Shown here: positions 8,536-24,537 of the stretch, piece after piece
How positions within the stretch are numbered: the first letter of the stretch is position 1
How the letters are laid out: each line of letters begins with the position of its first letter
DNA from: Chitinophaga pinensis
GTDB taxonomy: Bacteria > Bacteroidota > Bacteroidia > UKL13-3
Direction of reading: 5' to 3'
DNA: 58,380 nt
Assembly: GCA_945898275.1 (NCBI GenBank)
Contig: CAMDHZ010000018.1
Coordinates: 1 to 58,380 of the forward strand
The notes under the pieces: generated by a model
Told to the model about the DNA's origin: nothing
What the model saw: the letters and a program-made list of their open reading frames with translations, nothing else
Database searches by the model: none
Position numbers and translations under genes: made by a program

Positions 8536-8967
8536 ATGAAAAATTTATTTAAATTAACCCTTGCTTTATTAGTTGTGTTTCTTTTCGCATGTAAAAAAGA
8601 TGAAAATACTAATAAAACCACTAGCACTAAAGACCTTATTACTGCAGGTGCTTGGAAAGTAACTGGCTACAGTTCATCAGCAACTGATCCTCTTACCGTT
8701 TCTGTTATAAAAGGATGGAATGATGACCTAAAAGCCGGTGAATTGTTTGTAACATACAGTTCAAATGGCAGCTATATGTACAGTGATAGTTCAGAATTTG
8801 GAACCTGGGAATTATCTGGAGACAAAACAATCATTTTTGAAAAAGGTACCGCTGACGAACTTACCTCAACCATTGATAATATTACCACAAACAGCCTTGT
8901 AATCACCTACCCTTGGGAAATGAGCGACTCTTTAACTGTAAATGTTACAGAAACAGCTTCAAAATAA
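8536..8967 (+). CDS. Small lipocalin-like lipoprotein
   Basis: A 143-residue predicted lipoprotein with lipobox VFLFAC (Cys19) followed by KKDEN, a good match to the lysine-plus-acidic surface-export signal of Bacteroidota. The body has the lipocalin-like pattern: a start such as LITAGAWKVTGY, then repeated beta strands with SNGSYMYSDSSEFGTWELSGDKTIIF. Such proteins are common, unassigned lipoproteins, possibly binding a small hydrophobic ligand. The gene is monocistronic: a 225-bp spacer lies upstream and a strong terminator directly follows. It is inserted between genes of the opposite strand. Confidence 0.75.
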   Translation: MKNLFKLTLALLVVFLFACKKDENTNKTTSTKDLITAGAWKVTGYSSSATDPLTVSVIKGWNDDLKAGELFVTYSSNGSYMYSDSSEFGTWELSGDKTIIFEKGTADELTSTIDNITTNSLVITYPWEMSDSLTVNVTETASK

Positions 8968-9033: not shown

Positions 9034-10128
9034 TTAGGTAAAATATTGTATAGGATTGGTAACTACTTGAGATAATCTAACAATTTGATTAGAAAATTTC
9101 TTGATTATCAACTCACTTAAAAGATTTTTAGTGAATTTTTCACTTTCATAATGCCCAATATCAGCTATCATTAGCTTTTCTTCGGCATCAAAAAATTCGT
9201 GATATTTAAAATCTGCCGACACAAATGCATCTGCCTTTTTAGCAATAGCTGTTTTCAAAAGAAAGCTACCTGCTCCGCCGCAAATGGCCACTTTTCGTAT
9301 GGGTTTATCAATAGGTGTGAACCTAATCACTTCAAGCTCCATGTTTTCTTTTAGTAATTTAAGAAAACCTTTCGAATCTAATTCTTCTGGTAAATTTCCA
9401 ATCATGCCAGCTCCTGCCGACGACAGTTCGTTTTTAATTGGATACAACTCAAAGGCAACTTCTTCGTATGGATGTGCCTTTTTTAAAGCTTCAACTACTT
9501 GCTTTTGTAACCAACTTGGCAAAACTACTTCCAGTTTAATTTCTGCTTCAGTATGTCTTTCTAAGGTCTTTCCCAAAAAAGGATTAGCCTGTTCATTTGC
9601 TTTGTAAGTGCCACTTCCTAATACTTCAAAGGAACATTCACTATAATTGCCAATATTCCCGGCACCTGCTTCAAAAAGTGCGGACCTCACAAACTCCAAT
9701 TGTGCAAGCGGAACGTAGGTGGCCAACTTAATCAAACTATTTTTGGTTTCAGCCAATATTTCGGTTTGAACCAAACCCAATTTTTCAGCAATTTTAGCAT
9801 TAACTCCCATCCCCCAATTGTCTAAATTAGTATGAATGGCATAAATAGCTACATTATTTTGTATGGCTTTTATAACTGTTCTTTCGACATAATTAGCGCC
9901 ATTGAGCTTTTTTAAGCCTCCAAAAATAATTGGGTGATGAGCAATGATTAATTCACAACCATTTGAAATTGCCTCTATCACAACCGCTTCGGTGCAATCA
10001 AGCGTTATAAGTATTTTGCTAACTTCCTGCTCATGATTTCCAACCAATAATCCGCAATTGTCATAAGATTCCTGCAAGGCCAAAGGCGCCAATGATTCCA
10101 AATAATTTGTAATTTCTTTAATTTTCAT
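9034..10128 (-). CDS. Nif3-like dinuclear metal-centre protein
   Basis: A 364-residue member of the Nif3/YbgI (DUF34) family, which forms toroidal hexamers with two metal ions per subunit. Metal-binding motifs are visible: AHHPIIFGGL at about residues 64-73 and IGHYESE near residue 327. Between the two Nif3 halves (about residues 1-125 and 240-364) lies the PII-like insert present in the long forms (AHPYEEVAFELYPI). The biochemical role of the family is unsettled, although databases often label it GTP cyclohydrolase 1 type 2. The start is 7 nt after the stop of the glycosyltransferase gene, implying one transcript. Confidence 0.9.
   Translation of the reverse strand: MKIKEITNYLESLAPLALQESYDNCGLLVGNHEQEVSKILITLDCTEAVVIEAISNGCELIIAHHPIIFGGLKKLNGANYVERTVIKAIQNNVAIYAIHTNLDNWGMGVNAKIAEKLGLVQTEILAETKNSLIKLATYVPLAQLEFVRSALFEAGAGNIGNYSECSFEVLGSGTYKANEQANPFLGKTLERHTEAEIKLEVVLPSWLQKQVVEALKKAHPYEEVAFELYPIKNELSSAGAGMIGNLPEELDSKGFLKLLKENMELEVIRFTPIDKPIRKVAICGGAGSFLLKTAIAKKADAFVSADFKYHEFFDAEEKLMIADIGHYESEKFTKNLLSELIIKKFSNQIVRLSQVVTNPIQYFT
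9763..9772 (-). repeat. GGTTCAAACC dispersed repeat, copy 3
   Basis: Lies in nif3, read as Val-Gln-Thr; its flanks match the full 15-base form TTGGTTCAAACCGAA. Confidence 0.85.
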
Positions 10129-10135
10129 TTCAAAA

Positions 10136-10942
10136 CTAGCTTTGTTTAAATTTCCATTTTCGGTAAGCCTTGAACCAAGGCGTATGCTGAAAGCCTCTAA
10201 TCAACTTAACTTTAATCCAAATTAGCGGATAACTCAAGAAATTAAGCAATGCTATGTGCAAAGGGAAATGACTAAAACTTGCATGAATATACTCTCGCAT
10301 TCCCAACATTCTTTTTTGATAAGTAGCGCCTGTTACGTCGTAAAATGCCACCACCGCGTTCATAAAATGAGTTTTAAGTTCCTTTTTTTTAAATAACCTA
10401 ATGAACCATTCTGTATCTGATATTAATTGGTAATTGGTGTTGAATATTCCTACTTTATTGAATATTTCCCGCTTTGCAAAGGTAGCCTGATGACAAATAG
10501 GATACTTATGCCAAAAATCCTTTAAAGTTACTGCTTCACCAGCCACATAATCTATGCCTGTTGGTTCGTTTAAGGTTTGAACCTTGGCATATAAAAAATC
10601 TGGCAATGCCGTATCAATTTCATTAAATACATTCGCTAAAACTAAATCATCAAAGAATGCGTCACCAGCATTTAAAAAGTAAACCCACTCCCCTTTTGCT
10701 AGATTTACACCTTTGTTCATCGCATCATAAATTCCATTATCTTTCTCTGAAACAAGTTGTCCAATTTTACTTTGAAATGGCTGAAGTAGGGCCAAGGTAT
10801 TGTCTTTAGAACCACCATCTACTATAACCAATTCAAAATCTTGAAAGGTTTGATGGAGAGCTGAAAAAAGGGTTTTTTGAATCAAAGGCGCGGCATTGAA
10901 ACAAACAGTTATAATGCTGAGCTTTGGGGCAACCTTATCCAT
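10136..10942 (-). CDS. Glycosyltransferase family 2
   Basis: A 268-residue GT-A fold enzyme that transfers a sugar from a nucleotide donor, probably to a cell-surface glycan. The N-terminus has the family signature LSIITVCFNAAPLIQKTLFS. Donor-site residues follow (LVIVDGGSKDNT and DNGIYDAMNKG), and the metal-binding DXD position is occupied by NAGDAFFDD. No membrane segment is evident, so it should act at the inner face of the inner membrane. It resembles colanic-acid WcaA-type enzymes in general form. Its ATG overlaps the stop of a 39-codon lipoprotein gene (TAATG), implying translational coupling. Confidence 0.9.
   Translation of the reverse strand: MDKVAPKLSIITVCFNAAPLIQKTLFSALHQTFQDFELVIVDGGSKDNTLALLQPFQSKIGQLVSEKDNGIYDAMNKGVNLAKGEWVYFLNAGDAFFDDLVLANVFNEIDTALPDFLYAKVQTLNEPTGIDYVAGEAVTLKDFWHKYPICHQATFAKREIFNKVGIFNTNYQLISDTEWFIRLFKKKELKTHFMNAVVAFYDVTGATYQKRMLGMREYIHASFSHFPLHIALLNFLSYPLIWIKVKLIRGFQHTPWFKAYRKWKFKQS
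10574..10583 (-). repeat. GGTTCAAACC dispersed repeat, copy 4
   Basis: Lies in the glycosyltransferase gene, read as Val-Gln-Thr; flanks deviate from the extended form. Confidence 0.85.
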
Positions 10943-11061
10943 TAAAACTTGGGACAGTTACATTTTTTATCTCGAGCAATTCCTTTGTGGCTGCTACAAG
11001 AAGTACCCAATAATAGGAAGCTAATGAGCAATATCATTAATATGTTAAGCTTTTGTCGCAT
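10942..11061 (-). CDS. 39-residue lipoprotein, function unknown
   Basis: A short gene easily missed by automatic calling. The ATG is followed by a lysine and a hydrophobic stretch (ILMILLISFLLLGTSC) ending in a lipobox with the acylated Cys at residue 22. Only 17 residues then remain, ending in KKCNCPKF with two more cysteines. A TAATTTTG promoter element lies 4 nt before the ATG, so the transcript would be nearly leaderless. The stop codon TAA shares its last base with the ATG of the glycosyltransferase. The promoter, signal sequence and coupled stop together make a real gene likely. What it does is unknown. Confidence 0.7.
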   Translation of the reverse strand: MRQKLNILMILLISFLLLGTSCSSHKGIARDKKCNCPKF

Positions 11062-11065
11062 GATA

Positions 11066-11073
11066 CAAAATTA
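11066..11073 (-). promoter_or_regulatory. Promoter element of the small lipoprotein operon
   Basis: TAATTTTG matches TAnnTTTG; TTTA lies 21 nt upstream as a weak -33 element. The ATG begins 5 nt downstream. Confidence 0.5.
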
Positions 11074-11120
11074 AAAAAACCAACGGGATTTTAGTAAACT
11101 TGCACTTTATTTTAATACAA

Positions 11121-11777
11121 ATGGGAATTATTGAAATTTTAAAAGAGTTGCTTACCAACACAAAACCTTTTTTAGAGCAATTTGTAGCAAATCATGGTTT
11201 ATGGCTGTATGGCCTGCTATTTTTAATTGTCTTTTGTGAAACTGGTTTGGTTGTGCTACCCCTTTTACCAGGTGATTCTTTATTATTTACAGCAGGTGTT
11301 CTTGCAGGCAATCCAAATAATCAGTTAGATGTTGCGTTGATTATAATTCTATTAATTACGGCAGCTTTAATGGGTGATAATACCAATTATTTCATAGGTA
11401 AATTTTTAGCAAAAAAAGGAGAAGGCGCAAAGCTTTTCGGCATTTTCACAATTAAGAAAGAGTATATTAAAAAGACTGAAGATTTTTATGAAAAGCATGG
11501 TAGTGTTGCCATTATTATCGCCCGATTTGTACCGATTGTAAGAACATTTGCGCCATTTGTGGCAGGTGTTGGCAGCATGAAATACAGTAAATATATTACC
11601 TTTTGTGTAGTGGGTGCCATTTTATGGGTAACCAGCATTACCCTTGCAGGATACTTTTTAGGTAGCAATGAATGGGTTCAAAAAAACTTTGAAAAGGTAG
11701 TTCTAGGAATTGTTGGTTTATCTGTCTTGCCCATATTCTTTCAAATTATCAAACACCAATTTGCTCCTAAAAAATAG
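11121..11777 (+). CDS. DedA family membrane protein (VTT domain)
   Basis: A 218-residue inner-membrane protein of the DedA/VTT family, whose members include lipid-carrier flippases. The family motifs are present: FCETGLVVLPLLPGDSLLF in the first re-entrant region and ARFVPIVRTFAPFVAG in the second. Several membrane helices follow (about residues 25-45, 75-95, 165-190, 195-212). I place the start at the ATG giving MGIIEILKELL; the frame is open further upstream only through a TTG codon. Its stop lies inside the beginning of the next gene, suggesting coupling. Confidence 0.9.
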   Translation: MGIIEILKELLTNTKPFLEQFVANHGLWLYGLLFLIVFCETGLVVLPLLPGDSLLFTAGVLAGNPNNQLDVALIIILLITAALMGDNTNYFIGKFLAKKGEGAKLFGIFTIKKEYIKKTEDFYEKHGSVAIIIARFVPIVRTFAPFVAGVGSMKYSKYITFCVVGAILWVTSITLAGYFLGSNEWVQKNFEKVVLGIVGLSVLPIFFQIIKHQFAPKK

Positions 11778-15918: not shown

Positions 15919-18900
15919 TTACTGCTTTATTACTTTTCTAACTACCCATTCGTTGTTCATTTGAACACGAATCATATAAACACCAGCAGGAAGATTTGAA
16001 AGTTCAGTTAAACTAACTTTATCTCCATCAGCTTTAATTGTAAAAGATGATTTGTGACAAATAGAACCCATAACATTTACAACTTCAATATTTCCATTTC
16101 CAGCCTCATTAGCTGCGATGAAAATTGAAATTTCATTGTTAAACGGAACAGGGAAAACAGTAACATCTGTTTCAGTATCATCTCCAAAACGAACCGTTCT
16201 AACTTGGCTGTACTCGAAAGTTCCATCCAAATCAACCATTTTTAAGCGGTAGAAAACTACATTAGTATTTAATACCTCTGCAACATTTGCATCTTTAAAT
16301 TGGTAGCTAATCATTCTATTGCTGTTTCCAGCAGCTTTTACTTTATCAATAGCTTCAAACTTGCCATATTCTACGGCTCTTTCTATAATAAAATGACTGC
16401 TTCTTATTTCAGATGCAGTATTCCAATACAAACCAGCATTTGTACTGCCTTCCTTAACAGCTTCAAAGCTTGAAAGCGCAACAGGAAGTGGAGAGATATC
16501 AGTTGTACCGGTAAAATCAGAGAAATCTGACAAGCCAGTTACACCAAAGTCCATTGCAACAGTATCAACAGTTGTAGCAGTAGAACCATAATGTACCCAA
16601 TATCCAGAACCAGTTGGTTTCTTAGCCATTTTTAAATCAGATGCAAATGGCACGGTTCCTAACATATTAGGATCATAAATAAGATCTAAATCGTAGTTAA
16701 AGAAAGATCCACCTGTTGCATTAATTCTCCAGAACACATCCATGTAATGTGCGCCCGTAATTGTTCCATTATTTGTAGGATTACTGATTAAAGCGCCTGA
16801 ATGATATGTTCCTGAAATTGCTGAAGGTAAAGTACCTGAAAAGCCCCATACTAATTTACCAATGGTATCACCGTAAAGCAACATATGTTGTGTGTTTCCG
16901 CCACCAATTGAACCAGTAAAGGTTACAGCAGGAGGAGTTGAAGTTGGTGTAAATTCAAATGCACCAATATCTGTTGCACCTGTTGCTACCATTGTACTTC
17001 TGTTTGCACCGTTGAAATCATTGGTTACAAAAGTAGATTGCACACCGCGACCATTAGATGCCCAAGCATTAGATGCAGTTACCAATGGTGATAAATTACT
17101 ACTAGAAGTAAAGGAAATGTTTGAAGTTAATGACCTTCTATCTGACCCAGCATAAATTGCATTTCTGAAAGTTAAGAAAGCTGCAGGTGTATAATTCAAA
17201 CCATTTGAGTAAATCAAGTTGGTTCCACCTGTGTAGTATAAATTATTATCCGATTGAGGGGTACCGGTTATTGCTTGGAAATTTGCATAGTAAGCTGCAT
17301 ATCCAGTATTTGACCACAAAATGTTATTGAAAAGTCTAACATTATTAGAGGCTGTAACTTGCGGAACAGCTGGTGTGGTAGAGTGACCAGAATAATAATA
17401 AGCATATGAGGTTGCAGAAGAATTCAAACGAACCGTATTATTCATGGTATACAAATTCGAAGTATTAAACAATGCTATTCCGTACTGTGTGCCTGTTGAA
17501 AGCATATTAATAACATTGTTCTTAATTTGACCAACCCCAGTTTCGCCATAGTATCCATTAGTTGCCATATAAATACCATATGTAGAGAATGGCAACTGGA
17601 AGTTATTTCTGCTAATTTCTGTATTACCAGAAGTGCTTGCTAGGAAAATACCATAATATCCTTGAGAGGTATTACCATCGAAGAAGTTGTTTCTAATTTT
17701 GGTTTCGGCGCGGCTAGTTAAGTTAATAGAAGCCCAATAAGCCTGAACAAAGTTATTAGAGTCAATCTCTAAGCCTGGAGAAAACTGGTTGATGATGTTT
17801 TGTCCACCCATCCAAACGCCATAAGAACCTTGGCGTATTTGGTTATTAACAATTCTGATATTGGTAGCATTATCTCCATTTGGTCCATAAACAACGGCCA
17901 ATAAATCACTAGTACTTGTAGTGGTAATTCCCTCTAAAATACAGTTTCTGATAATTAAATTATTCGTATTTGTATTGGTTGGTGTCCATTTGTTAATTGA
18001 AAAAACCCTGCCATTTGTAACATTTGTATTTCTAATAGTTAAGTTAAGGAAAGTAGCAAAAGAAACACCTCTTAAACGAATGGTGTAGTTATCTGCTGGC
18101 GTGGCAGTAGCAGAAGTGATAATAACATTTGCAGGGTTACCTGTAAGTGAACGGAATAAAATTCGTGAAGTATCATTGGTACCTGCAATTGGTGACATAT
18201 CAAACTGCCCTGTATAAGTGCCAGAGGCAATATTAAAGATTACATTTCCAGCAACACCGCCACAAGTTAATCTATTAATCGCATCACCAATAGTTAAAAA
18301 GTTATTGGCACCTGAACCGCTTGGATTGATAGTGTAGGTTCCAACCAAAGCACCACAGATGTTTAAAAAAGCAGTATCATTTAGGTTTTGAGGATCAACA
18401 ACAGTATTAGGTTGCGAAGTATATGCCTTAAATGTAATTAATCCGCCAACAAAGTTAAACCTTTGGTTGGTTCCACCTGGGCCACTTGTACTGTCAAAGG
18501 TAACTGTATCGGTTGCGCCTGGCAAAATAGTGCTAGTAATAGTTCTAGTAACTGGAGTAGAACCACCGTTGTAATGTACATTAAGAGAAGTGATTGTGCT
18601 TATTCCAAAGTTTCTTACAACCACTCGAACATTGGTTAAACCAGAAAGCGTTGGTTGAGAAGGCTGCAAAATTGCAATCACACCAGCATCGTCATTTGGC
18701 TTAGCGAATTCATTAACACCCGCATCAGGAGCAACTGTACTTCTTGTAACTCCGTCTATATCATCCACAACTGTTGCAATTGGAATACCAATTGAATCTA
18801 ATTGAGGATTAATAGAACGTAAATTTGTCGCTGATAAGAAACTTGGATTTGTCCAAATACTTAATGAATCTAAACCTGGCACAAATACAGCCATAGCAGT

Positions 18901-21900
18901 TACATAATTTGCCAAGGCTGGGTAAATGGTGTTTATAATCCTATATGGATAGGTTGAAGTTGAAAAATAAACGTTGTTGTTTGCAAGAATTGAGCTGATT
19001 GATAGAGAACCAGTTGATGGAATCCATGAAGCCATAGCGCCATTAGGAGAAGCAAACACATTATTAACTAATCTTAAGTTATTTGAGGTTGAAACGTTAT
19101 TGTAATTTAAATAGAGGGCACAACTAACATAACTAGCATCTCCAGAAGTATTATGAACAGAATTATGAGCAATGTCTGTGAATGCATTTCCTGCATCATA
19201 AATTCCATAAGTAGTATAGGTGATTGCACCTAACTGGAACATGTTATTAGCAATAACATTTCTATTTGTTGAAGTTCCAAAGTTCTGAGTTAAGAAGATA
19301 CCATAACCTCCCAATTGATTACTTGTTTGATTTTTGGTTACAATGATACCATTATCACACAAAGCATAATAAAGTGGACAAGCAAAAGTATTAATTCCGT
19401 TGCCAGAACCAGTAATAGTATTTCTTGTGGTTACAATGCCATTTTGTGCGTAGGCATAAACGCCATAATAGAAAGGATTAATAAAGTTTGAGTTTCTAAT
19501 CACATTACCAACTGATTTTGTTGTGGTGTTATTAAAGAAGTTCACACCATAGTAACCACCAATGATTGTGCAACTGTCTACCAGCAAAACATTACCATTA
19601 TTACCGGCAAAGTTTAGGTTCAAAGCGTTACCACTAGAAGCTATACCTGCAAAAGTTGTAAAACCTATTGTTAACTGCGCTACTCTTACAGTAGAACGAA
19701 TTACACTGTTACTATCAGCACTGTTTGTAAATAGAACACCATAACCGCCACCTGAAAGCGCATTTGATTCAATTGTTAGGTTTCTAAATACTAAATATTT
19801 GGCACCATCCACTAATATCGTAGCTCTTTGACCGGAGGCCGTGTGAACGATTTTGGTAGAAGATGAATCAGCACCTCTGTAGGTAATCGTATTGATTGGG
19901 GAAGACCCAGGTATTTTGCCAGTAAATGTTAAAGAACCATTGTAAGTACCTGGAGCTATATTTACTACAACTGGTCCATTAACACCGCAAGTTTGAAGCA
20001 ATTGCGTTACGGCTGTAATTGAGTTGAAGGTAGAATCATTTGTAGGAATGGCAGCATTTACAAATAAGTTACCAGAAAGTGCTGTACAAACAGTAATACT
20101 AGCTGTGTCATTTACTGGGAAACTATCCGATGTAGAATTTGGCATCGAAGTCCAAGCTTTAATTCTGTAAACACCTGGATTTAAAAAATTAAAGGTTCCA
20201 GCAGAAGTAGTAACGGTATCATCCTTTGCTAAAAGTCCACTCCAAAGATTTGGTGATTGAACGGAATCATTAACCGTCCAATTAATAAAGGATGTTGTTA
20301 ACGTATTTGTTCCAAAGTTCTTCAATAATACATTTACATTTTGTGTACCTAATGAAATTGGATTAATAGGTGAAGTAATACGAGTTAAACCTGCATCATC
20401 ACCATATATTCCAAATTCATATGCACCTGGATCTGGTGTAATAGCATTTCTTAACGCACCTGTTACATCTCTAGGAACATCCGCTGTAACAAAACCGATG
20501 TTATTAACAGTATCGCTGCCTGGCATGTAATATTCAGGACCAACAGACAATCTGAATAATGGATCAGCACTCACGCTGTTTTGGTCGTATGCACTAGCAT
20601 TTACAGCCCTCCAAGCAGTGAATGTGGTAATATTTCCTCCATGGAAGCCTACAAAATTATTGGTACCAGTTTGTTTTAAATGTACTACGTTGTTATTGAT
20701 AACATAACCTGCACCCGTTGTGGCTAAATAGTAAATATACTTCGCACCAGAACCTCCTCTATTTAAAAACCAGATATTGTTTCTAATTGTAGTAGTAGTA
20801 GGCGTGCCAGAATTATAATATAAATAAGTAACACTAGTAGAAGTTGAAGTAGGATGGTCAACCACAAAAATATTGTTGAACAACCTTATGTTACTAGCAC
20901 TTAATTGGTAGAACCCATAAATAGTACCATTGAACCTAATATCATACATTTGGTTGTTGCGAATGATAATTGGTCTATTAGTTTGTGTATTGGTAGCAAT
21001 CAAAAAATAGCCATAGAATGTACCAGTTGTTGTTTGTAAAGCTTGATATGGTTGTTTAATCACATTATTTTCAATGGTATCTTGGTTAACACTATTTACC
21101 ATATAAAATCCATAAAAAGTAGTTGGAGATGTTTTTGTTGGACGAGATAATACATTTCCAGAATAAGTGGTTCCGGCGCTATATGCTACATAAAATCCGA
21201 AAACTGTAAAATCTCTTAAAATATTATTTTTAAACACATTGAAGGTGTTTACTCCATTATTAACCGCTTGTGGCTGGTATGCAATGGCGTAATAAGGACC
21301 TCCAGTAGAATTTCCGATGATTTGGTTGTTTTCAATTAAGTTATTGCTACCATTGATGCCGGTTGTTGTTGGATTGCCCAAACTACCAGTAAATGCAATA
21401 CCAGCTGACAATGAACTTCCTGTTACCGAACCAATGTCTATGGTATTGTTCAAAATTTTATTAAAATCTGCACCAGCAGTAAAGATGTATCCAATGCCAT
21501 AAGATGCATTTAATGAACGAACAGTTAGGTTATTAAATGTAAAGTAATCTGCTCCAATTAGGTTAATGATACCAATGTTTGAAGGGTCGATATTATTGAA
21601 TTGAATTGTATTGCCGTTGCCATTTACAACGATATTATTGGTAGCGCTTACACCTGGAATAGTTCTAAAAAATAATTGTTCTGTGTAAGGGCCAGAGCCT
21701 GTTACAACATTAATAGTAACAGGACCAGAAACTCCTCCTACAGATAATAGTGTTGCCACATTGGTGAAATTTTGAAAAACTCCCGCACCAGTTCCTGCTG
21801 CATTAACCGTTAAAGTGCCAGCAGAAGCTGGTGCTGTAACGCTAGATAAAGAATTATTATCTGGATTTGGGTCAGCACTACCATTAACATTTCCTAAAGT

Positions 21901-24537
21901 TGCAGTGATATTGAACAAGGTGTTGACAGTTAAGTTAACACTACCCAATAAGATGTTTCCGGAAACTGCTCCGCCTCCAAGTGGACCAGTGTACATAACT
22001 GGCGTTTGGGGTACTCCGTTAACTGACCAATTAATCATGGCACTGTCAATGGTATTTATACCAGCATTTCTAATCTTAACATTTATATTTTGTAATCCAG
22101 CCAAATATGGCGTTGCTGGTACTACAATTTCTGCCATCGCTCCATCTACTGAAATAGGGGAAGCTTCCCATGCGCCAATATCCATTGGGTTGGTTCTAGT
22201 GGCACCTGTAAAATCAACAGGTACAGTTGCAAGTAAGGTTGTATCTCCACTACCATTGTAGGCACCATCTCGAGGTGAATAAACATTTGAAGCAGGATTT
22301 GTAAAGTTAGGTGAAACCTCAATACTTTGTTGGTCTGCAACAGTTAGTGCAGCTCTCCATTGGGTCAAGCCTAAATAATTAACGCCCAAATAATTTGCTA
22401 AGTTGTAATTGGAAGCATTTCCAAAATAAGCATTTCTATTAACAGTTGCACCAGTTGCCCAGCTACCAGTGACATTTAAAGCTAATTTTTGACCAGTTCC
22501 ACCTCTAGTGATTGCAATTAAGTTGTTTCTAAAATCAATAGTTGAGAAAGCGGAGGTTCCTCCAGTAAAATACAAACCCCAAGTTTGACTAGTTGTTGTA
22601 TTGTTAATATTATCAAACAAGAGCGTATTATTATAAAAACGGTTATTGAAAGATGTAAGGAGGTAAAATCCATATTGGGGTCCATTTCCATTGATTTTAT
22701 GGAGTAAGTTATTGGTAAACAAATTGCTTTCTGTTGTGCTATTGGCTCCAGAATAGTTAATCATATACCATCCAAAGAATGTACCTGTATAGGTTGGAGA
22801 ACCGTTGAATATATTAGTGATTTCATTTCTATCAAAGGTTTCAAACCTTGATTGAGAAGAAAGGTAGAAACCATATACTGTAGTTTGTTGAACTTTTGTA
22901 GCCCTTGTTAAAACATTTCCTCTAAAAACAGTTCTATTACCATTTTGCCAATAAATGCCAAATTGGAAAAAGTCTTCAATGCGATTATTGATAAACTGAT
23001 TACCAGAATAAGTATTAAAAGAACTTTGGGGGAACCCAACAATACCATAATACAAACCAAAACTTGCTGTACTACCTTTAATAACATTATTTTGAAATAG
23101 GTTTCCAGCACCATTATTTCCTGAAGTTAAGACTGATGTTAAACTACTTGAAAAAACAATACCCGCAGAGTTGTTAGAGGTGCTTGAGGTAACATTTGTA
23201 ATTTCAATTCTTCCATTTTTGAAAGTATTTGAATCTGCATTTGATAAGAAGTGCAAACCCCAACCAAAAGTATTACTAGTTGAGCGAACAGTTAAACTAT
23301 CAAAAGTTATATGTTTAGCACCTTGAAAACGAATGAGTGCAGGATTTGCAGCAGTACAATTAAATTCCATTGTACTACCAGCACAATTAAATACAACATT
23401 GTTGGTTGCGCTTGCACCAGGAACGGCAAAGAAAGTAACTTGCTCATTGTATGTTCCAGGGCTTACATTAAATACTACTGGAGCAGAAACACCACAAGAA
23501 GTAATAGCAGAGTCTGCAGCACCAAAAGTTCTAAAATTTGTTGCACCAGAACCAGCGGGGTTAATGGTGTAAGTTCCTGCTAAAGGTCCTGAACAATAAG
23601 TAGCTAAACTTCTACAAATGGTATCATTTCCTGGTGTGTTATTACCTGCAAAATTGGGATTATCTGTCCAAGTTCTTAATAAGTAAGTTCCTACTGCTGG
23701 TATACTAACCTGAGTAGTAAATGTGGCTGTATAAGTTGCTCCAGGAGCAATAGATAAACTTGACAAAGATTGAGAAACAGGCGTATTATTATTTAATTGA
23801 TAATATATATCGACACTGGTAATTGTAACAGTTGAAAGATTAGTAAAATTAAATGCAACAGTATTATTACCTACGAAAGGAGAGGCAGGTTGAGTGATGG
23901 TTCCACTGATTAAATCAGCGGTAGAAGAAGGCACTAATAAAGTATAATCCTCATACTCCGCAGAGTAAAAAATAGGTCCACATGGAGAAGCAATTTGATT
24001 TAAGCCGTCGCTAGCAATTCTAATTCTATAAGCTCCAGCAGCCAATGTTGAAGGCAAAATAAATGAACCATTAACAAATAGGTTTGCATTTGTTTGAGGT
24101 GAAGTTAAAACTAACTCTGGGGCTGTTGTAGCAAATGTGCCATCATTGTTATAATCTATATAAATTCTGAAGGTAGTACTATTACCAGCTCCCACTCTAA
24201 TGCTATAATTTATTGTGTCGGAGGCAAGTGCGCGCACAATTAAATTGGTGTAATTAAAATAGATGGGAGCACCAGTCCCGCTGGCAGTTAAATTATTGAT
24301 TTGAGTTGGTAAGGTGGAGGTTCCAAGTGTAACTTGCTGAATACCCATTTGGTAGTTGGCAACATTTGTTGCACCAATGCTGGTACAATAGTTTGGAGGC
24401 GTATAACATTGGGCATTTGTTTTGAAAGTAGCAAAAACTGCTACAAACAATAAAAATGAACCAATCAATGCTGATCCAAATTTTCTTCGAATACTAAAAT
24501 CTAAAGATAATAGTTTTGATAAGTAATAATTTGTCAT
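15919..24537 (-). CDS. Giant T9SS-secreted beta-helix surface protein
   Basis: A 2872-residue exported protein. The signal peptide ends at about residue 43 (ATFKTNA/QCYTPP). A GEVED-type domain follows (about 90-205, IYIDYNNDGTF and SAEYEDYTLLV), then a CARDB-like Ig domain. Four modules start at about residues 318, 908, 1484 and 2061 with a shared opening (GTYTINPAGSGATNF-like, then CGV..PVVFN and GTYNEQ). Each is a right-handed beta-helix rich in Asn ladders, closed by a motif such as MDIGAWE, PDPGAYE, PDAGVNE or TDIGAFE and separated by CARDB-like linkers. The C-terminal 80 residues (FPVPFNNEISI to GVYMIRV and VVRKVIKQ) are a T9SS type A sorting domain. Likely an adhesin or a glycan-binding/cleaving surface protein. 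No catalytic site was identified. Confidence 0.9.
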   Translation of the reverse strand: MTNYYLSKLLSLDFSIRRKFGSALIGSFLLFVAVFATFKTNAQCYTPPNYCTSIGATNVANYQMGIQQVTLGTSTLPTQINNLTASGTGAPIYFNYTNLIVRALASDTINYSIRVGAGNSTTFRIYIDYNNDGTFATTAPELVLTSPQTNANLFVNGSFILPSTLAAGAYRIRIASDGLNQIASPCGPIFYSAEYEDYTLLVPSSTADLISGTITQPASPFVGNNTVAFNFTNLSTVTITSVDIYYQLNNNTPVSQSLSSLSIAPGATYTATFTTQVSIPAVGTYLLRTWTDNPNFAGNNTPGNDTICRSLATYCSGPLAGTYTINPAGSGATNFRTFGAADSAITSCGVSAPVVFNVSPGTYNEQVTFFAVPGASATNNVVFNCAGSTMEFNCTAANPALIRFQGAKHITFDSLTVRSTSNTFGWGLHFLSNADSNTFKNGRIEITNVTSSTSNNSAGIVFSSSLTSVLTSGNNGAGNLFQNNVIKGSTASFGLYYGIVGFPQSSFNTYSGNQFINNRIEDFFQFGIYWQNGNRTVFRGNVLTRATKVQQTTVYGFYLSSQSRFETFDRNEITNIFNGSPTYTGTFFGWYMINYSGANSTTESNLFTNNLLHKINGNGPQYGFYLLTSFNNRFYNNTLLFDNINNTTTSQTWGLYFTGGTSAFSTIDFRNNLIAITRGGTGQKLALNVTGSWATGATVNRNAYFGNASNYNLANYLGVNYLGLTQWRAALTVADQQSIEVSPNFTNPASNVYSPRDGAYNGSGDTTLLATVPVDFTGATRTNPMDIGAWEASPISVDGAMAEIVVPATPYLAGLQNINVKIRNAGINTIDSAMINWSVNGVPQTPVMYTGPLGGGAVSGNILLGSVNLTVNTLFNITATLGNVNGSADPNPDNNSLSSVTAPASAGTLTVNAAGTGAGVFQNFTNVATLLSVGGVSGPVTINVVTGSGPYTEQLFFRTIPGVSATNNIVVNGNGNTIQFNNIDPSNIGIINLIGADYFTFNNLTVRSLNASYGIGYIFTAGADFNKILNNTIDIGSVTGSSLSAGIAFTGSLGNPTTTGINGSNNLIENNQIIGNSTGGPYYAIAYQPQAVNNGVNTFNVFKNNILRDFTVFGFYVAYSAGTTYSGNVLSRPTKTSPTTFYGFYMVNSVNQDTIENNVIKQPYQALQTTTGTFYGYFLIATNTQTNRPIIIRNNQMYDIRFNGTIYGFYQLSASNIRLFNNIFVVDHPTSTSTSVTYLYYNSGTPTTTTIRNNIWFLNRGGSGAKYIYYLATTGAGYVINNNVVHLKQTGTNNFVGFHGGNITTFTAWRAVNASAYDQNSVSADPLFRLSVGPEYYMPGSDTVNNIGFVTADVPRDVTGALRNAITPDPGAYEFGIYGDDAGLTRITSPINPISLGTQNVNVLLKNFGTNTLTTSFINWTVNDSVQSPNLWSGLLAKDDTVTTSAGTFNFLNPGVYRIKAWTSMPNSTSDSFPVNDTASITVCTALSGNLFVNAAIPTNDSTFNSITAVTQLLQTCGVNGPVVVNIAPGTYNGSLTFTGKIPGSSPINTITYRGADSSSTKIVHTASGQRATILVDGAKYLVFRNLTIESNALSGGGYGVLFTNSADSNSVIRSTVRVAQLTIGFTTFAGIASSGNALNLNFAGNNGNVLLVDSCTIIGGYYGVNFFNNTTTKSVGNVIRNSNFINPFYYGVYAYAQNGIVTTRNTITGSGNGINTFACPLYYALCDNGIIVTKNQTSNQLGGYGIFLTQNFGTSTNRNVIANNMFQLGAITYTTYGIYDAGNAFTDIAHNSVHNTSGDASYVSCALYLNYNNVSTSNNLRLVNNVFASPNGAMASWIPSTGSLSISSILANNNVYFSTSTYPYRIINTIYPALANYVTAMAVFVPGLDSLSIWTNPSFLSATNLRSINPQLDSIGIPIATVVDDIDGVTRSTVAPDAGVNEFAKPNDDAGVIAILQPSQPTLSGLTNVRVVVRNFGISTITSLNVHYNGGSTPVTRTITSTILPGATDTVTFDSTSGPGGTNQRFNFVGGLITFKAYTSQPNTVVDPQNLNDTAFLNICGALVGTYTINPSGSGANNFLTIGDAINRLTCGGVAGNVIFNIASGTYTGQFDMSPIAGTNDTSRILFRSLTGNPANVIITSATATPADNYTIRLRGVSFATFLNLTIRNTNVTNGRVFSINKWTPTNTNTNNLIIRNCILEGITTTSTSDLLAVVYGPNGDNATNIRIVNNQIRQGSYGVWMGGQNIINQFSPGLEIDSNNFVQAYWASINLTSRAETKIRNNFFDGNTSQGYYGIFLASTSGNTEISRNNFQLPFSTYGIYMATNGYYGETGVGQIKNNVINMLSTGTQYGIALFNTSNLYTMNNTVRLNSSATSYAYYYSGHSTTPAVPQVTASNNVRLFNNILWSNTGYAAYYANFQAITGTPQSDNNLYYTGGTNLIYSNGLNYTPAAFLTFRNAIYAGSDRRSLTSNISFTSSSNLSPLVTASNAWASNGRGVQSTFVTNDFNGANRSTMVATGATDIGAFEFTPTSTPPAVTFTGSIGGGNTQHMLLYGDTIGKLVWGFSGTLPSAISGTYHSGALISNPTNNGTITGAHYMDVFWRINATGGSFFNYDLDLIYDPNMLGTVPFASDLKMAKKPTGSGYWVHYGSTATTVDTVAMDFGVTGLSDFSDFTGTTDISPLPVALSSFEAVKEGSTNAGLYWNTASEIRSSHFIIERAVEYGKFEAIDKVKAAGNSNRMISYQFKDANVAEVLNTNVVFYRLKMVDLDGTFEYSQVRTVRFGDDTETDVTVFPVPFNNEISIFIAANEAGNGNIEVVNVMGSICHKSSFTIKADGDKVSLTELSNLPAGVYMIRVQMNNEWVVRKVIKQ

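Follow-up and report, generated by a model that had tools for sequence, protein, structure and literature searches.

A conserved CxCP micro-lipoprotein family, encoded by probably leaderless genes near glycosyltransferase, iron-uptake and lipid-carrier genes

Background

Leaderless polycysteine upstream ORFs exist in mycobacteria. The gene described here resembles them as a short, probably leaderless frame with cysteine codons near its end and a coupled next gene. It differs in that it encodes a lipoprotein signal and a mature peptide under selection, and occurs in contexts without a constant downstream gene. Among assembly factors, the nearest in plan is LptM, a very small lipoprotein with a conserved segment after the lipid cysteine; LptM, however, is not known to have a CxC, and members of the present family give weak scores with its profiles. 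LptM is reported to promote oxidative maturation of the LPS translocon (PMC10567701).

By neighbourhood, the nearest known family is that of the FeoB-associated cysteine-rich proteins (PF12669), also tiny cysteine-containing membrane peptides linked to feoB. These proteins are described as predominant in Firmicutes and Bacteroidetes, with genes downstream of feoB and the motif Cx3-5Cx2-3Cx6-8C (PMC8749426), and a Bizionia gene with this annotation is reported under an iron regulator (PMC9478572). In contrast, the micro-lipoprotein gene precedes feoA, and its product has a lipobox and a C...CxCP pattern. Finally, the DAG-RiPPs (DybA/ChrA-like) are described as Bacteroidota micro-lipoproteins with a signal peptide, a lipobox and a C-terminal Cys/Pro motif (PMC12636315). 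According to the same source their motif is CPxCGxG and is MNIO-modified, whereas the product of the gene considered here ends in CNCPKF.

Results

The reading frame and its product

The window (the whole stretch of DNA analysed, 58,380 nucleotides) contains a minus-strand frame encoding MRQKLNILMILLISFLLLGTSC followed directly by SSHKGIARDKKCNCPKF (Table 1). On the plus strand the same interval has no open frame on translation, as stops are present. The sequence-only reading of the window, which named no strand, had described this frame as a lipoprotein gene with a promoter element 4 nt before the ATG, a textbook lipoprotein signal, a cysteine-bearing tail of 17 residues and a TAATG overlap with the start of a glycosyltransferase (GT) gene. 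The promoter element is indeed found at this distance. The tail is also as described, 17 residues following the lipid cysteine (residue 22) with two further cysteines and the end CNCPKF, and base 10942 belongs both to the TAA stop and to the ATG of the GT gene.

Table 1. Features of the micro-lipoprotein locus in the window
Feature	Positions	Strand	Basis or remark
Micro-lipoprotein gene	10942..11061	minus	39 codons and TAA stop; conservation upstream of GT, dN/dS
Signal peptide, residues 1-21 (MRQKLNILMILLISFLLLGTS)	10999..11061	minus	sequence; hydrophobic though fast-evolving in relatives
Probable lipid-attachment Cys22 codon	10996..10998	minus	Cys in 24/24 A1 rows
Mature part, C-SSHKGIARDKKCNCPKF	10945..10998	minus	dN/dS 0.16; 0.21 without the three Cys codons
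CNCP motif, C34-P37	10951..10962	minus	CxCP, x = D or N, in out-of-family members
-7 promoter element TAATTTTG	11066..11073	minus	ends 4 nt before ATG
-7-like element TAAACTTG of divergent dedA	11095..11102	plus	one mismatch; putative function
Family 2 glycosyltransferase (GT)	10136..10942	minus	1-base overlap with lipoprotein stop
DUF34/NIF3 protein	9034..10128	minus	downstream neighbour in 13/30 f1 loci
DedA (VTT-domain) protein, divergent neighbour	11121..11777	plus	Pfam/NCBIfam, tblastn

The signal peptide is sound but less than textbook. The lipobox, L-G-T-S-C, is usable, and falls short of the standard because of the glycine at -3; the window protein has no match to Pfam LPAM_1 at E<=1, and those relatives whose scores were seen remain under the 20-bit cut-off. 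In alignment A1, whose 24 rows were all picked from the position upstream of GT, the hydrophobic core and the cysteine occur in every row, and the n-region, core and lipobox cysteine of an SPII signal are found, with the window lipobox relaxed at -3. Thus Cys22 is predicted to be lipidated and the product to reside in the envelope. In Bacteroidota, acidic residues right after the lipid cysteine are the export signal of surface lipoproteins; the mature start of the window protein, C-SSHKGIAR, contains none.

Selection was measured in the family of the window genome (f1), on the 28 of 41 loci that have the 18-codon mature form with three cysteines in place (27 unique). For 123 pairs with mature pS below 0.6, dN/dS was 0.163 in the mature part against 0.627 in the 13 codons before the lipid cysteine, the ratios being rough because synonymous sites are well diverged. 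As the set had been chosen by its three cysteines, the calculation was repeated without these codons, giving 0.212. Over all 351 pairs, pN/pS was 0.170 for the mature part (0.210 without cysteines) and 0.834 for the signal part. Purifying selection acts on the mature part, and the frame is a genuine gene; equal synonymous and nonsynonymous rates, the outcome that had been named as counting against it, were not observed.

A family of CxCP micro-lipoproteins

The window protein belongs to a family, defined here by a signal peptide, a lipid cysteine, a basic linker and CxC(P), which is mostly single-copy and occurs across the class of the sampled genomes, probably Bacteroidia. A wide profile, A2, was made of 33 rows chosen for CxC. 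At E<=0.01 it matched 313 of 395 class genomes, many of the matches stopping before the CxC. At E<=5e-5 there were 107 places, one in each of 107 of the 395 genomes and 93 of them outside f1; at most 18 candidates were scored per genome, so second copies are possible. A decoy with the mature tail reversed gave six matches at E<=5e-5, all at A2 loci and adding no locus, a partial control because signal peptides and CxC are common to both profiles. The window protein, itself a profile row, scored E 1.4e-14 and has all the features of the family; its genome yielded a single match at E<=0.001 when all 109 candidates were scored.

The lipid cysteine, basic linker and CxCP are kept across members. 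CxC was present in 82 of 83 out-of-family places read, which span 24 further families (the exception is L097), and of the 78 out-of-family CxC members read by script, 74 had CxCP with D or N as the middle residue, although these counts lean toward CxC because the A2 rows were chosen for it. Some relatives have His-rich variants, KHHHHKKGCGCP and HKSHSKKKCNCP, and many extend at least 10 residues beyond CxCP. The 83 places are 82 of the 93 outside f1 at E<=5e-5 plus G222, just above this threshold. Left out of the reading were four places of genus g86 in family f53 (G154, G270, G380, G417; no CxC where read) and three whose match covers no more than model positions 1-33 (G102, G089, G351); G431, G415 (both unclassified), G160 and G118 were left out of the context tally. 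A different small lipoprotein, of the CKSGGGIRKKDKCPGLRM type and without CxC, was seen in genus g86 beside an OsmC-like gene named by eye (L090, L093, L109, L113); it resembles the micro-lipoprotein mainly in the signal peptide.

Neither Pfam nor NCBIfam assigned a family to the members scanned, which makes the family easy to miss, and we found no report of it in open-licence PMC text, which cannot be searched by motif. PF12669 matched three of 33 members at E<=1, the window protein not among them. The best of these, L092 (genome G021; E 1.8e-4, 22.1 bits), lies about 34 kb from feoB, and neither of the two members whose scores were seen reached the 27-bit gathering cut-off. Membership in PF12669 was rejected on this score and, for the window gene, on feoB adjacency, although 33 of 82 relatives precede feoAB. 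Membership among the MNIO-modified DAG-RiPPs was rejected as well: the MNIO enzyme PF05114 was found in none of 16 genomes, the window's own counted, and there is no CPxCGxG.

Promoter position

Upstream DNA was sufficient at 40 f1 loci. In 33 of these an exact TAnnTTTG is separated from the start codon by 1-7 nt, the spacing being 4 nt in 24 of the 40. The remaining seven have a one-mismatch element 4-5 nt before the start. As a background, an exact element ends within 11 nt of 134 of 11,355 ATG triplets (1.2%; 20 loci). Outside f1, the exact element lies within 8 nt of 16 of 45 starts, and an element with at most one mismatch of 25 of 45, both starts and loci being hand-chosen here. In Flavobacterium johnsoniae, many transcription start sites are reported 4 or 5 nt past the -7 element (PMC6847099). 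Given this distance and an element ending 1-7 nt before the start codon, the transcript probably begins at or beside the start codon, that is, a leaderless mRNA is probable. The leaders predicted in F. johnsoniae are reported to be longer than 10 nt in 87% of cases (PMC6847099).

The 59-bp gap between the start codons of the lipoprotein gene and dedA (11062-11120) seems to be home to both divergent promoters. Many f1 loci visibly contain a CAAGTTTA block, the complement of the dedA -7-like element.

The glycosyltransferase neighbour

The best NCBIfam match of the GT is WcaE, far under its cut-off. Used as a query, the GT had a match at E<=1e-10 in 89 of 98 genomes, with at least 50% identity in 42, the window's own counted both times. 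In all these 42 genomes the micro-lipoprotein gene lies directly upstream of GT, so the proposed tie between a conserved micro-lipoprotein and this GT holds within f1. The 42 loci comprise 29 of the first 30, recognised by the motif, the 30th with a GTG start, eleven more, and G052; the G008 GT is 96% identical to that of the window. TAATG occurs at the lipoprotein stop in 23 of 41 f1 loci, and by tblastn the GT match starts 0 to 50 nt past this stop.

Twelve further genomes have a best GT of 37-44% identity, and a 450-nt scan found no lipoprotein in them. A profile search found members in six of them: G030, G039, G021, G042, G029 and, weakly (E 2.4e-4), G020. In G030 and G039 (f1 genus g13, a sister genus to that of the window) the order is aroE-dedA<->lipoprotein with GT about 1.2 kb away, and in G021 and G042 (f1 genus g4) the lipoprotein gene precedes rsmI-like and lnt-like genes, named by eye, rather than GT. 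The profile matches of G040, G047, G051 and G054 sit in longer frames (199 to 707 aa) with partial model coverage, and G031 and G033 have no profile match at E<=0.001. In G028 of f1 the lipoprotein gene is also apart from GT. No GT match was found by tblastn in the fetched flanks of the 82 out-of-family relatives.

We conclude that GT is a lineage-specific operon partner. The partnership looks local, because proteins of the same build are widespread in the class, often beside iron-uptake or lipid-carrier genes. The suggestion that the lipoprotein heads a glycan gene pair did not hold as a general role, nif3 being a downstream neighbour in 13 of 30 f1 loci and GT missing from the relatives' flanks.

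Elsewhere in the window, a 143-aa lipoprotein gene without a Pfam family above cut-off lies on the opposite strand between nif3 and a zinc-ribbon gene (8536-8967). A 2872-aa secreted protein with repeats (15919-24537) has a C-terminal tail resembling, by eye, a type IX secretion signal.

Iron-uptake and translocase neighbourhoods

For the 82 out-of-family contexts, representatives of FeoB, FeoA, SprT-like, MlaE, ABC ATPase, nucleotidyltransferase, AroE and PF04018 were confirmed with Pfam and the rest were assigned by tblastn to these; four were read from frames (L101 feoAB, L123 SprT, L096 DedA and aroE, L103 other). The commonest context is feoAB downstream (33, in 12 families). It is followed by the mlaEF/sprT/GMP locus, or its sprT part, without feo (19, of which 12 are from genus g22), a 143-aa gene upstream (7), DUF368 and aroE divergent (6), DedA and aroE divergent (2) and mlaEF only (2); the other 13 are unclassified. 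The lipoprotein gene keeps its locus where feoAB is missing (the 19 above), so iron is not the whole story. Indeed, feoB is present in 18 of 18 f1 genomes tested, in the window genome on another contig (C4), and a regex scan of 1.5-kb flanks found no lipoprotein beside it in any of the 18.

DUF368 (PF04018) is absent from 18 of 18 f1 genomes tested. It adjoins the lipoprotein gene in six of nine tested genomes that have it (G095, G167, G244, G131, G119, G360); in G103, G067 and G300 it is located elsewhere, with no lipoprotein beside it by regex scan. DedA is divergent from the lipoprotein gene in 22 of 30 f1 loci, whereas in L139, L140, L142-L145, L161 and L164 there is no DedA match nearby. 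Proteins of the COG0586 DedA group and DUF368 have been proposed as undecaprenyl-phosphate (UndP) flippases (PMC10127716). The window DedA is probably of the COG0586 type, given that it scores 227.8 bits against E. coli DedA (cut-off 236).

The gene order of genus g13 recurs with DUF368 in families f38, f53 and f56 and with DedA in f38 and f60, which ties the window gene to the group of members with translocase contexts. Common ancestry of these members and those with feoAB is proposed more tentatively, from the motif of about 18 residues, the copy number and the promoter position. DUF368 or DedA was seen at the same place by aroE and the lipoprotein gene in L091, L094, L096, L100, L107, L188, L201 and L225, and the swap looks like a non-homologous replacement of undecaprenyl-phosphate translocases. 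In G006 and G007 the lipoprotein, GT and DedA genes are absent together, but nif3 reaches the contig end there (G007:C197 has 8964 bases with the match to 8962, G006:C56 has 14790 with the match to 14788); this is an assembly gap, and the absence was rejected as a sign of a functional unit and not used as evidence.

Two further arrangements were observed. In L092, L292 and L122, from two families, the lipoprotein gene is upstream of an lnt-like gene (apolipoprotein N-acyltransferase, by eye). In family f28 (L121, L122, L210, L220, L221, L237, L240), the gene of a 143-aa secreted-looking protein abuts or overlaps the lipoprotein gene upstream; at E<=0.001 the representative of this protein matched no Pfam family.

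Discussion

Our preferred reading, held tentatively and at somewhat less than even confidence, is that the gene encodes an envelope micro-lipoprotein of the CxCP family that presents a thiolate ligand at the membrane surface, binding a metal or exchanging disulfides, with GT as a lineage-specific partner. The probably leaderless gene would give a 39-residue prelipoprotein, which, going by the lipobox, would be exported, lipidated on Cys22 and cut. The product would be an 18-residue lipid-anchored envelope peptide, a basic linker followed by the thiol pair C[ND]CP, in our judgement too short to fold alone. The CxC pair, aided by nearby Lys or His, might hold a soft or ferrous metal ion or exchange disulfides for envelope proteins. 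Neighbours more widespread than GT are feoAB together with mlaEF/sprT, or else aroE and a translocase of undecaprenyl-phosphate (DedA or DUF368). The His-rich variants would fit metal binding; on the other hand, the CxC pair offers few cysteines for a metal site, which counts against that role. A wider proposal is possible but doubtful, namely that the C[ND]CP lipoprotein, made from leaderless mRNA, serves two seemingly unrelated systems, feoAB import of ferrous iron and undecaprenyl-phosphate recycling by DUF368 or DedA, through a common envelope activity.

Two alternatives appear unlikely, to about the same degree. One is a partner of the undecaprenyl-phosphate translocases, helping or regulating DedA or DUF368 on the periplasmic side, so that the lipoprotein stays when one translocase type replaces the other. 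It agrees with the eight out-of-family members, from four families, that are divergent from a translocase beside aroE, and with f1, where the divergent gene is mostly DedA and DUF368 is lacking. However, three DUF368 genes have no lipoprotein beside them, eight f1 loci have no DedA nearby, the joint absence in G006 and G007 is a contig break, and the COG0586 assignment of the window DedA depends on the E. coli match. The other is an LptM-like assembly chaperone, whose lipid-anchored segment would dock on an outer-membrane machine while the CxC steers its disulfide formation. The plan is the same, a tiny lipoprotein with a short conserved segment after the lipid cysteine, but LptM is not known to have the CxC. 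Moreover, Pfam LptM_cons (PF13627) matched one of 33 members (E 0.54; 10.6 bits against 27.3) and the NCBIfam LptM model (NF047847) seven of 33 (best E 0.0061), with no match to the window protein, and membership was rejected.

A translated leader peptide is less probable again. Here ribosome pausing at the cysteine codons would set the level of GT (or feoA) in a cysteine-sensing attenuator, and the product would be unimportant. The start adjacent to the promoter in f1, the cysteine codons near the stop, the frequent TAATG and the mycobacterial precedent are all in its favour. However, selection is not confined to the cysteine codons, the rest of the mature part being constrained as well, many members continue well past CxCP, the DUF368/DedA contexts have no constant downstream gene, and in the seven f28 loci another gene abuts the lipoprotein gene upstream. 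RNA folding at the GT junction is not unusual (z -0.54), and an attenuator fold there was rejected.

Still less probable is an anchor or regulator dedicated to GT, as the sequence-only reading had proposed. The linkage in all 42 f1 genomes, with genes overlapping or nearly so, is what it would predict, but the 82 out-of-family members have no GT match nearby, and f1 genomes G021, G042 and G028 carry the lipoprotein gene away from GT; as a general role it was rejected. A chance reading frame, suggested by the shortness of the gene, is refuted by the dN/dS and conservation tests, with the promoter position also against it, and can practically be dismissed.

At the strict threshold, roughly one in four of the sampled class genomes has a match to the micro-lipoprotein family. 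The family also supplies a group of probable leaderless genes; in F. johnsoniae, of the same phylum, most predicted leaders are longer than 10 nt (PMC6847099). Its recurring neighbourhoods open direct genetic tests under iron limitation and undecaprenyl-phosphate stress. If the wider proposal is true, iron import and lipid-carrier recycling would draw on one shared envelope activity, for example the loading of metal or the control of thiol redox state on the periplasmic side.
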